A stretch of 16,877 bases of DNA. Source: a bacterium. Its GTDB lineage: Bacteria > UBP15 > UBA6099 > DSWB01. The notes beneath the pieces are model-generated. The model ran no database searches. It was not told the DNA's origin and saw nothing but the letters and a program-made list of their open reading frames with translations. How positions within the stretch are numbered: the stretch's first letter is position 1; every line of letters begins with the position of its first letter. The stretch spans positions 1 to 16,877 of the forward strand of contig JAGUYV010000104.1 of NCBI GenBank assembly GCA_020061125.1. Reading direction: 5' to 3'. The translations under genes and the position numbers were made by a program. This document shows positions 1,395 to 4,667 of the stretch, in pieces.

Positions 1395-2837
1395 ATGAAT
1401 TTAGCCCAAAATCTTTTCGCATCAGCCGCGCAGTTCCCGAACCGCACCGCGCTGGTTTTTTATGACAAAAGAATTACATACCAGGAAGCGCGGGATTTGA
1501 CGGCCGCCATGGCCGGCGCGCTGTCCGAGCGCGGTGTGGGACCGGGCGTGCGCCTGGCCATCGCCATGCCCAATATGCCCGAGTTTGTGTACACCTACTA
1601 TGCAACACTGGCCGCAGGCGGCGCCATCGTGCCTGTAAACCCCATGTACACAGCCCGCGAAATCCGCCACATGTTGCGCGACAGCCTCGCGCGTTTTGTG
1701 GTCACGCATCCGCTGTTCGAGCAGTCCGTGAAACAGGCCATTGAGGGCACGGATATCGAACTGATTTATGCGGACAACATGGGCGACCCGGCCAAATTAT
1801 GTCTACGAGACCTGGCGAAAAACGCCAAACCAATGGAACCCGTGGAACTTCACCCGGATGACACGGCTGTCATAGCATACACCAACGCCACGCAGGGCTG
1901 GCCCGTGGGCGCGGAACTGACTCATAACGGACTCAATTTCAATGTCCAGAGCTGCATTCACATGGCGCATGCTGACGAAAATGATGTATTTATATCCGTT
2001 ATCCCGCTTTATCACGCATTTTCAGCTACGACCTGCATGAATCTACCTCTTGCGAGCGGAGGGATGGCAATTCTGAATGAAACATTCTCCGAAAAACGGG
2101 TTGTTGAAATCCTTGAGGCCGAACCTATCACGATTTTCCCTGCAGTACCTGCAATATTTCAAAAGATATTGAAGGAATTCGGCGCATCGGGCAAAAATTT
2201 TTCCAAAGTCAAAGCCTTTGTGCCTGGAGGCGCGCCTTCGGGAGAGGATTTAATACAAAACTTTTCCTCTGCATTCAATGCGAGTGTTTACGAAGGCTAT
2301 GGAATCACTGAATGCGGTCCTGTGACCACAGTTAATCCCATTTACAAAAAGATCTCGAAAATAAGCTCAATTGGCGTTGCTTTGCAGGGGATATCGCTCA
2401 AGATTATTGACGCACAGGGCAATGAAGTTGCTCCTGGAGTTCGTGGCGAGCTTTGCGTAAAGGGCGAAAATGTCATGAAATGCTATTGGAATCAACCAGA
2501 AATGACAGCAAAATTTTTACGGGACGGCTGGTTCCACACAGGAGATGAAGCTTATTCCGATGATGAGGGTTTTATTTACTGGACTGGATTGATAAAGAGA
2601 ATGGTCCTGGTCGGAGGCTTTAATGTCTATCCGGCTGAAGTGGAAAGAATTATTAAGGAACATCCATCCGTAAAGGATTGCCTCGTTTACGGCGTTGAAG
2701 ATCCGTCCATGGGTCAGCATGTTGCAGTTGATATTTCGCTTAATCCTTCGTGTCAGCTTAATAACATTGAGCTAAAGAAATTCGCAAGGCAAAATCTTGC
2801 ACCATACAAAACTCCACGAACTGTCTCAATTCAATAA
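1395..2837 (+). CDS. Acyl-CoA ligase-like (ANL superfamily) protein with degenerate active site; probable pseudoenzyme
   Basis: The fold is that of long-chain fatty-acid-CoA ligases, which activate acids as acyl-AMP and then form acyl-CoA. The 480 residues align along the family: an N-terminal MNLAQNLFASAAQFPNRTAL segment, PLYHAF near 205, YGITECGP at 302-309, HTGDE at 381-385 and GGFNVYPAEVE at 407-417. Three catalytic elements are altered. The P-loop, normally YTSGTTGxPKG, reads YTNATQGWPVG (162-172). The A8 segment, normally DRxKD, reads GLIKR (398-402). The protein stops at KTPRTVSIQ, before the A10 PKxxxGK lysine. Normal members are 500-560 residues. The start ATG has an AGGA about 11 bases upstream. 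Codon use is GC-rich up to about 1920 and AT-rich afterwards. Acyl-CoA synthesis is unlikely; a non-catalytic role or gene decay fits better. Confidence 0.85.
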   Translation: MNLAQNLFASAAQFPNRTALVFYDKRITYQEARDLTAAMAGALSERGVGPGVRLAIAMPNMPEFVYTYYATLAAGGAIVPVNPMYTAREIRHMLRDSLARFVVTHPLFEQSVKQAIEGTDIELIYADNMGDPAKLCLRDLAKNAKPMEPVELHPDDTAVIAYTNATQGWPVGAELTHNGLNFNVQSCIHMAHADENDVFISVIPLYHAFSATTCMNLPLASGGMAILNETFSEKRVVEILEAEPITIFPAVPAIFQKILKEFGASGKNFSKVKAFVPGGAPSGEDLIQNFSSAFNASVYEGYGITECGPVTTVNPIYKKISKISSIGVALQGISLKIIDAQGNEVAPGVRGELCVKGENVMKCYWNQPEMTAKFLRDGWFHTGDEAYSDDEGFIYWTGLIKRMVLVGGFNVYPAEVERIIKEHPSVKDCLVYGVEDPSMGQHVAVDISLNPSCQLNNIELKKFARQNLAPYKTPRTVSIQ

Positions 2838-3120
2838 AAATGATGGCATTCGTCTTAGTCTAACTTTATATCAGATATATTTAATATAGTTATAACTAAT
2901 CATAAAAAATGCACTCGTCTGTACTATATGCAGAATAATCAGAATAACGATTGCTATTTTAACATAACATATATTATGCGACGCTTAAGGTATGTCAAAT
3001 TATAACTTTTATTAACATTATATATAATAAATGGATACTAATTTGATTGCACGATTCGTTTCGATTCTAAATAGCCATTTTGTGTATGAAAAGGCTGAAT
3101 ATGATAACAAAACGCTTAAG
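2838..3120. other. AT-rich convergent intergenic gap, no gene seen
   Basis: This gap separates the rightward ligase-like gene from the leftward kdsD-like gene. It is far richer in A and T than any other part of the window: the row 2881-2940 has 15 G/C in 60 by hand count. Stops are frequent in all frames and no ribosome binding site with a worthwhile frame is visible. No GC-rich hairpin followed by a T-run is apparent for either flanking gene. A 9-base direct repeat, ACGCTTAAG, occurs at 2981-2989 and 3112-3120, the second copy directly abutting the kdsD stop. A short inverted repeat, TATATCAGATATA, lies at 2867-2879. Both may be chance in sequence of this composition. Confidence 0.6.
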
Positions 3121-3705
3121 TCATTTTGACCTTTTTCCAAGTTCTCCCCCGGAGTGATTGAAATTAAAATCATTTTTAGAGAATTCTATCGCTCTTGATA
3201 TTGTAACAGCGAGCGCATCTCCCATGGCAAGAGTTGCAGTTGAACTGCTTGTTGGCGCAAGATTGAGATGATCAGCTTCTGAACCGACTCCGATGTCGAG
3301 TATGGCGTCTGATATCAGCGCGAGCGAGGATTTTGTATCCCCTGTCATGGCAATGACTTTGGCGCCAAGGTGTTTTGCCCGTTTTGCGGTTTCCACAACT
3401 TCCGCGGTTTTGCCGCTGTTTGAAATCGCGATAAGGACATCTTTGGACTGCAGCAAACCTGTATCACCATGCATGGCTTCTGCACTGTGAAGAAAAACCG
3501 AGGGCACGCCCAGGCTGGAGAATGTGGCTGAAATCTTTCTTCCAACATGGCCCGATTTGCCAAGTCCGGTGACCACTACCTTGCCTTTGCACGATTTCAT
3601 GGCTTTAACGGCAAATGTGAAATTTTTATCAAGCCGATCCCGCACGGCTTCAAGCGCGGAAATCTCTTTATTCAATACATCTTTTCCCCATTCAAGAAAG
3701 CTCAT
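3121..3705 (-). CDS. kdsD: D-arabinose-5-phosphate isomerase, SIS domain only (KdsD/KpsF/GutQ family)
   Basis: The family interconverts ribulose-5-phosphate and arabinose-5-phosphate, the first step to Kdo for lipopolysaccharide or capsule. The 194-residue protein is one SIS domain: GLGKSGH at 47-53, HGD at 79-81, SNSGKT at 95-100, a conserved glutamate at 143, APTSSSTATLAMGDALA at 150-166 and the terminal histidine H184 in HSGGELG. It stops ten residues after H184, where full-length KdsD (about 325 residues) continues into two CBS domains, so those regulatory domains are absent. I chose the ATG at 3705 because AAGGA (3716-3720) lies 10 bases upstream; an in-frame TTG at 3735 lacks such support. 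Base composition is lower in GC than genes to its right. A related SIS sugar-phosphate isomerase is the main alternative. Confidence 0.85.
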   Translation of the reverse strand: MSFLEWGKDVLNKEISALEAVRDRLDKNFTFAVKAMKSCKGKVVVTGLGKSGHVGRKISATFSSLGVPSVFLHSAEAMHGDTGLLQSKDVLIAISNSGKTAEVVETAKRAKHLGAKVIAMTGDTKSSLALISDAILDIGVGSEADHLNLAPTSSSTATLAMGDALAVTISRAIEFSKNDFNFNHSGGELGKRSK

Positions 3706-3761: not shown

Positions 3762-4667
3762 TTAATCCTGTTCATTACTGGGTTTTTCAGATTCTATTGG
3801 TTCAATGACAGTATTCTGCTGTTGTGAAACGCCGGATGCTCCCCTGCCCTTTTTGCCAGCCCTGCCGAACATGACAAAACAAGCTGCAATAATGAGTAGT
3901 TGCACACCCGTAAAAAATCCGCCCTCCAGATACGATGTGTTGTACCCGAACAGTACTCCGCATCCGGCCAGCGCCAGGACCGCCATGGGCAGCATGGGTA
4001 TGCGCAAAAGCGCGACTGGCAACAGCACGGCCAAAGGCAACAGGCTGCGTCCGGTTACGATGACATATCCTGACCAGTCATGATCGCGCCCCGCGCCGAA
4101 GATAATATAAACAATAATTCCGGCGGCCGCGGCGGTGGCGCACAAAACACCGAAATACGCTGCCTGGCGCACTCCGGGAGACCATCCCATAAGCATGGCA
4201 CGCGCCGCGCGAGATTGGCCCAAACCGGGATTCGAGGCTATGCGTTGTTTGTATGCGGCGGACCAGATTCCGGCGCCGCTCGACCCCATGAGAAGACACA
4301 GCATGCCCGACACGGCGCCGGATATCCATGTCCAACCTGCGATCCTGGGCGCGACAAAGAACATGGCCGAATTCACACCGCTGCTCACGGTCCTGTAGAC
4401 AAAAACCGTGAATGCGGCCGTTGCGATGAGGGAAGTTACATAAGGGACCATGGATTCCGAAAGGATGTCGAAATCCTTTGTATCGCCACTTGCTTGATTC
4501 GTTCCGGACGGTTTCTTGATTAAACTGTTCAAGGCGAGGAACAGCAGCGGCAAGGTGAAAATCACACTGATGTAAATGAAGTTGCTGTTCTCCGGGGTGT
4601 TCAGCGCAACCCATCCATTGATGGCCGCGAACAACGCCAGGAAAAATGCGAAATTAAAGTTTTTCAA
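3762..4667 (-). CDS. Unknown polytopic membrane protein
   Basis: I do not recognise a family. The 301 residues contain about eight hydrophobic stretches, at roughly 6-23, 30-49, 74-92, 109-130, 166-190, 207-221, 225-242 and 250-268. Hydrophilic segments lie at 50-72 and 131-165, and a polar tail runs from 269 to 301 with a basic GRAGKKGRG followed by an acidic end. The first helix could act as an uncleaved signal anchor. The start is taken as TTG at 4667, which overlaps the coaE stop by 14 bases; no ATG precedes the second helix, so coupling to coaE is likely. It ends 56 bases before the kdsD-like start. No catalytic motif or ligand-binding signature is visible, so no function is offered. Confidence 0.75.
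   Translation of the reverse strand: MKNFNFAFFLALFAAINGWVALNTPENSNFIYISVIFTLPLLFLALNSLIKKPSGTNQASGDTKDFDILSESMVPYVTSLIATAAFTVFVYRTVSSGVNSAMFFVAPRIAGWTWISGAVSGMLCLLMGSSGAGIWSAAYKQRIASNPGLGQSRAARAMLMGWSPGVRQAAYFGVLCATAAAAGIIVYIIFGAGRDHDWSGYVIVTGRSLLPLAVLLPVALLRIPMLPMAVLALAGCGVLFGYNTSYLEGGFFTGVQLLIIAACFVMFGRAGKKGRGASGVSQQQNTVIEPIESEKPSNEQD

Follow-up and report, generated by a model that had tools for sequence, protein, structure and literature searches.

A phylum-restricted clade of ANL-superfamily proteins predicted to have lost acyl-adenylate formation

Among described systems, the protein considered here most resembles the PRK06187/FadD-like long-chain acyl-CoA ligases, with which it shares the two-domain fold and the A4, A5, A7 and A8-loop motifs, and 4-coumarate:CoA ligase, a working enzyme whose structures (5bst, 5bsr) match its predicted model almost completely. 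ANL-type domains that evolution has kept despite degenerate adenylation motifs have also been described. In the FLD2 domain of eukaryotic DIP2 both A5 and A7 are degenerate, while FLD1, which lies in the same chain, keeps them (PMC9342972). Inactive adenylation (A) domains of nonribosomal peptide synthetases (NRPS), such as that of albicidin, persist within assembly lines with poor core motifs and are complemented in trans (PMC8949500). These two were the only ANL pseudoenzymes that we found in the open-access literature. Here we describe the product of a gene at positions 1395-2837 of a 16,877-nucleotide stretch of contig JAGUYV010000104.1 from a bacterium of the phylum UBP15; we refer to this whole stretch as the window.

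The window protein departs from each of these systems. It scores below the cut-off of the PRK06187/FadD-like family and, compared with those ligases, is without Gly, Thr and Lys in A3, without Arg and Asp/Glu in A8, and without A10. What sets it apart from 4-coumarate:CoA ligase is the loss of the A10 segment and of the contacts to the ATP phosphates. Unlike DIP2 FLD2, the bacterial clade to which it belongs keeps A5 and A7, loses A3, A8 and A10, and is free-standing; unlike the inactive NRPS A domains, the window protein stands alone without a carrier domain. Our searches, which covered open-access papers, turned up no free-standing, phylum-wide ANL protein that lacks A3, A8 and A10 but has A5 and A7. 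Such a protein would represent a natural loss of the ATP-phosphate side only, separating the two halves of ANL chemistry, and would offer a testable case of an enzyme family turning into something else, in a phylum that is poorly sampled and whose named matching records are all metagenome-assembled.

The 480-codon frame is uninterrupted from the ATG at 1395 to the stop at 2835-2837, as the first-pass annotation of the window had stated. Its product matches the Pfam families AMP-binding (PF00501, 1.5e-87) and AMP-binding_C (PF13193, 8.7e-10), the latter match being limited to profile positions 1-64 of 76. The best NCBIfam match is NF004837 (PRK06187, long-chain-fatty-acid--CoA ligase) at 354.9 bits, below the 476-bit cut-off; relatives score 342-373 bits against this model, and a canonical paralogue from the same genome scores 535.9. 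The AlphaFold model of the window protein (mean pLDDT 94, pTM 0.92) has the full two-domain ANL fold, and aligns with 5bst and 5bsr over 478 residues at 2.0 Å. Membership of the ANL superfamily is therefore established both by the AMP-binding domain in the sequence and by the two-domain fold of the predicted structure. By domain and best family the protein looks like a fatty-acid ligase, yet it is very likely not one.

We compared the motifs of the seven clade proteins with those of 34 canonical relatives (Table 1). An active ligase is expected to carry the A3 P-loop [ST]SG[ST]TGxPKG, which YTNATQGWPVG does not match: Gly165, Thr167 and Lys171, conserved in 33/34, 32/34 and 32/34 canonical relatives respectively, are replaced, and position 164, canonically Ser or Gly, is Asn. 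The first-pass annotation had read this segment as we do; we add that Thr166 is still present in the window copy, but lost in six of the seven clade members. The A8 hinge, GLIKR, likewise departs from the GRxKD/E of an active ligase. Arg399, present in all 34 canonical relatives, is Leu in the window copy and His or Arg in its relatives, and is lost in five of the seven members, while Asp/Glu402 (33/34 canonical) is Arg in all seven. The loss at A8 claimed in that annotation thus stands for these two residues, with the refinement that Lys401, which is Arg in one clade member, is retained here. The window protein ends ...LAPYKTPRTVSIQ, before the A10 catalytic lysine (PKTxxGK) as had been claimed, and all seven chains stop short of this segment. 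The losses had been described as three independent ones; they do exist, but they are mostly shared by the clade, and only the A8 Arg-to-Leu change is special to the window copy.

At a threshold of 80% or more of the canonical relatives, 54 positions count as conserved, and most clade members have lost eight of them: Gly165, Thr166, Thr167 and Lys171 in the P-loop, Arg399 in A8, and Pro283, Gly363 and Ile404. The lost positions are concentrated in the P-loop (4/8, p 0.012), and the losses fall on ATP-phosphate contacts. Altered P-loop Gly, Thr and Lys together with altered A8 Arg and A10 occur as a set in none of the 34 canonical relatives.

The other motifs named at the outset, YGITE, HTGD and GGFNVYP, are present as described. 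The A5 YGxTE and the ribose-binding Asp of A7, both expected of an active ligase, are found, with Glu306 and Asp384 invariant, and the clade shows no variation in the residues surrounding the adenine/ribose site, in the A4 His or in the A8 loop. There are also three conserved cysteine positions, of which C429 is found in 7/7 members, and C174 (Glu in the window copy) and C307 (Ala in a second copy carried by genome G001) in 6/7.

Table 1. Coordinates in the window of the ANL-superfamily gene and its motifs
Feature	Position	Strand	Remarks
ANL-superfamily (acyl-CoA synthetase-like) gene, 480 residues, member of the predicted adenylation-dead clade	1395..2837	+	Open frame; Pfam AMP-binding 1.5e-87; orthologues in 6/7 phylum genomes
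Altered A3 P-loop YTNATQGWPVG, residues 162-172	1878..1910	+	Gly, Thr, Lys replaced; Asn164 clade-invariant; matching DNA pattern found in the phylum only
A4 His207, acyl-pocket histidine	2013..2015	+	Kept in all 7
A5 YGITE, residues 302-306	2298..2312	+	Tyr302, Gly303, Thr305, Glu306 clade-invariant
A7 HTGD, residues 381-384	2535..2546	+	Ribose-binding Asp384 kept in all 7
A8 hinge GLIKR, residues 398-402	2586..2600	+	Arg399 to Leu here; Lys401 kept; Asp/Glu402 to clade-invariant Arg
A8 loop GGFNVYP, residues 407-413	2613..2633	+	Kept
C-terminus PRTVSIQ and stop	2814..2837	+	Chain ends before A10 (PKTxxGK), as in every family member

Our sample consisted of the seven genomes of the phylum within a collection of 386 genomes. 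Orthologues are present in six of the seven, the other five being 48-52% identical to the window protein, and the second copy in G001 is 43% identical to the window copy, making seven proteins in six genomes, from three families and four genera. This second copy (L037:2393-3847) has an even more altered P-loop, YTNGVGGCCLG. An alignment of A3, A8 and A10 in homologues from sister genomes, which the first-pass annotation had proposed, shows the same altered motifs in the orthologues: all seven proteins carry YTN[A/G]xxGxx[L/M/V]GAxLTH, have Arg where A8 normally has Asp/Glu, and terminate short of A10. In a maximum-likelihood tree with the 34 canonical relatives, the seven proteins form one clade with support of 100/100, whose stem measures 0.74 changes per column. 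The next relatives beyond the clade are at most 34% identical, and those inspected among the closest have canonical or near-canonical P-loops.

The altered P-loop, searched for as a DNA pattern, was found in 6/386 genomes, all six in the phylum, and in 0/379 outside it, with no match to a reversed-pattern control. Scanning the genome contigs with the family alignment revealed no member outside the phylum, although this rests on two short peptide patterns that a distant member could escape; a single scan of viral contigs with the same alignment gave no relative. Matching named records include bacterium ADurb.Bin236, which NCBI places among unclassified Bacteria, RA.bin91, USCA_metabat.19_sub and Dive96_bin1.91. 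The seventh genome of the phylum, G004, is without this gene and without gmhB, its neighbour in congeners of G004. Because that genome is only 67% complete and gmhB is missing too, the absence of the gene there is uninformative.

Selection on the gene was assessed by the ratio of nonsynonymous to synonymous substitution rates (dN/dS), as had also been proposed. Among the three close genomes G002, G003 and G006 this ratio is 0.031, 0.119 and 0.083, indicating purifying selection; the values for the neighbouring gmhB, 0.018-0.042, are somewhat lower. Between genera synonymous sites are saturated and no ratio was drawn for the window copy, for which the proportion of nonsynonymous differences (pN) is 0.34-0.39 and that of synonymous differences (pS) above 0.8 in comparison with every relative. 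In the P-loop segment (residues 162-177), 9/16 residues are clade-invariant, compared with 117/480 overall (p 0.005, a modest test given the few lineages), and therefore the segment is still constrained despite its lost catalytic residues. We conclude that the gene is most probably not dying but encodes a genuine protein whose job has changed.

The explanation that we favour, with a probability of roughly 0.55, is that the window protein is an ancient, adenylation-dead but ligand-binding ANL paralogue that would serve as sensor or partner subunit by means of ANL domain movement. A phylum-restricted, old paralogous branch of the long-chain acyl-CoA ligases would have lost acyl-adenylate formation and then been retained. 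Without the P-loop Gly, Thr and Lys, the A10 Lys and, in most members, the A8 Arg, ATP would not be positioned for attack, and the first half-reaction would be absent or negligible. In one studied ligase, mutation of the P-loop Gly lowers activity 1,000-fold and mutation of the A8 Arg 100-fold (PMC8388817), and adenylation depends strictly on the A10 Lys, which is of little weight in the second half-reaction (PMC11255334). Taking these mutant effects and the role of the A10 Lys together, we predict no useful adenylation; on such motif biochemistry, the first half-reaction appears to be lost or negligible. An acyl group, acyl-CoA or adenylate may still be bound through the A4 His, A5, the A7 Asp and the A8 glycine loop, and the protein may work by domain rotation, either sensing that ligand or serving as a putative regulatory partner of one of the cell's active ligases or β-oxidation enzymes. 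That ANL domain movement can report ligand binding is known from engineered biosensors (PMC10590383). A related formulation, which we hold tentatively and at somewhat less than even odds, is that of a phylum-wide ANL pseudoenzyme derived from a fatty-acid ligase, being either an acyl-CoA/acyl-adenylate sensor or an enzyme of the thioester half-reaction only, with a P-loop remodelled for a new ligand and conserved as such.

Several observations weigh against the favoured explanation. The P-loop Lys mutant of one studied ligase was only 4-fold lower in activity (PMC8388817), so that loss of this Lys alone would not kill activity. Among the family loci compared, no neighbour is conserved between genera, and thus none supports a regulatory partner. 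Nor is the conformation of the model evidence for it: the predicted thioester-type conformation was dropped because a canonical paralogue, folded as a control with the same sequences, was predicted likewise and fits thioester-conformation structures too.

The main rival is a half-reaction enzyme, which would not adenylate but would transfer acyl groups from acyl-AMP to CoA or a different thiol, or in the reverse direction, with a partner ligase supplying the acyl-adenylates. Catalysis other than adenylation is possible because the thioester-forming half-reaction needs no A10 lysine (PMC11255334), and the retention of the A7 Asp, A5, A8 Lys401 and the A8 glycine loop is consistent with it. We nonetheless consider this explanation unlikely, given that the ribose-contacting A8 Arg is lost in five of the seven members, that the hinge-adjacent Asp/Glu is Arg in all seven, and that no dedicated acyl-AMP-making partner is encoded beside the gene. 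Moreover, free acyl-AMP is not known to be a common pool in cells.

We are more sceptical still of a ligase that stays active through an unusual ATP site, formed by the invariant Asn164, a mostly bulky residue 166 and a hydrophobic residue 171, and perhaps working on a special acid or with a helper protein. The P-loop segment is strongly conserved in the clade and so still does something, and the Lys mutant mentioned above retained a quarter of its activity; however, three P-loop residues (Gly, Thr and Lys), the A8 Arg and A10 are altered jointly, in a set that no canonical relative shows, and mutation of the Gly or the A8 Arg alone is severe (PMC8388817). Similarly doubtful is a structural or moonlighting protein, whose fold is kept for protein contacts only and which has no small-molecule ligand. 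Catalytic losses in a kept fold fit this idea as well as they fit ligand binding, but the invariance of the adenine/ribose-site residues, the A4 His and the A8 loop would be unexpected if only the surface mattered. Finally, it is highly improbable that a normal ligase gene has recently decayed in this one genome, or that an error of sequencing or assembly is to blame, for although third-position guanine-plus-cytosine (G+C) content falls from 0.67 to 0.41 along the window copy and one change (A8 Arg to Leu) is private to it, the same altered motifs and length recur across three families in genomes that were assembled separately, the frame is intact, and pN lies far under pS against every relative.

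The first-pass annotation had offered a choice between recent decay and a retained non-catalytic role such as ligand sensing. The former is refuted by phylum-wide orthologues with the same motifs, their monophyly, purifying selection among close members and an unusually invariant P-loop segment, and retention of the gene for some role is therefore well supported; that this role is non-catalytic, or one of ligand sensing, we infer.

In the window the gene has glgA and a gene for a SIS protein as neighbours. Elsewhere, where neighbours were named by reading their translations, it lies with metK and a gene for a peptidase-like protein (G001), with mutS and gmhB (G002, G003 and G006), or near a gene for a radical-SAM-like protein (G005). 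Function by association was rejected, as family gene order differs between genera.

The window's genome, G001 and G005 encode ordinary ligases from the same group, in which A3, A8 and A10 are intact. Additional AMP-binding proteins occur in all genomes of the phylum, and most of the ones inspected have canonical P-loops. The window's genome gives 17 acyl-CoA dehydrogenase and 8 thiolase matches, and the phylum genomes 8-18 acyl-CoA dehydrogenase and 5-11 thiolase-family matches each. Fatty-acid metabolism is thus present, and therefore activation need not depend on the window protein. The same genome also encodes, on another contig (C380, L154), an ANL protein of 623 residues with the P-loop YSSGTEGRPRG, in which the second Thr is replaced by Glu and the Lys by Arg, and with no recognisable A10.

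An Rfam search gave no match, and terminator-like sites occur at chance level. Promoter-like sites exceed the level in shuffles by two standard deviations, most of them lying in the A+T-rich stretch; neither kind of site was used as evidence. On the minus strand, 3765-4667 encodes a 301-residue protein with no Pfam match, between coaE and a SIS-domain gene. The fall in third-position G+C within the ANL gene lies between codons 1-200 (0.67) and codons 201-480 (0.41), and orthologue identity shows no fall across it. Downstream of the gene, G+C content is about 33-36%, compared with close to 60% in the rest of the region, the drop in composition lying within 1801-3300.
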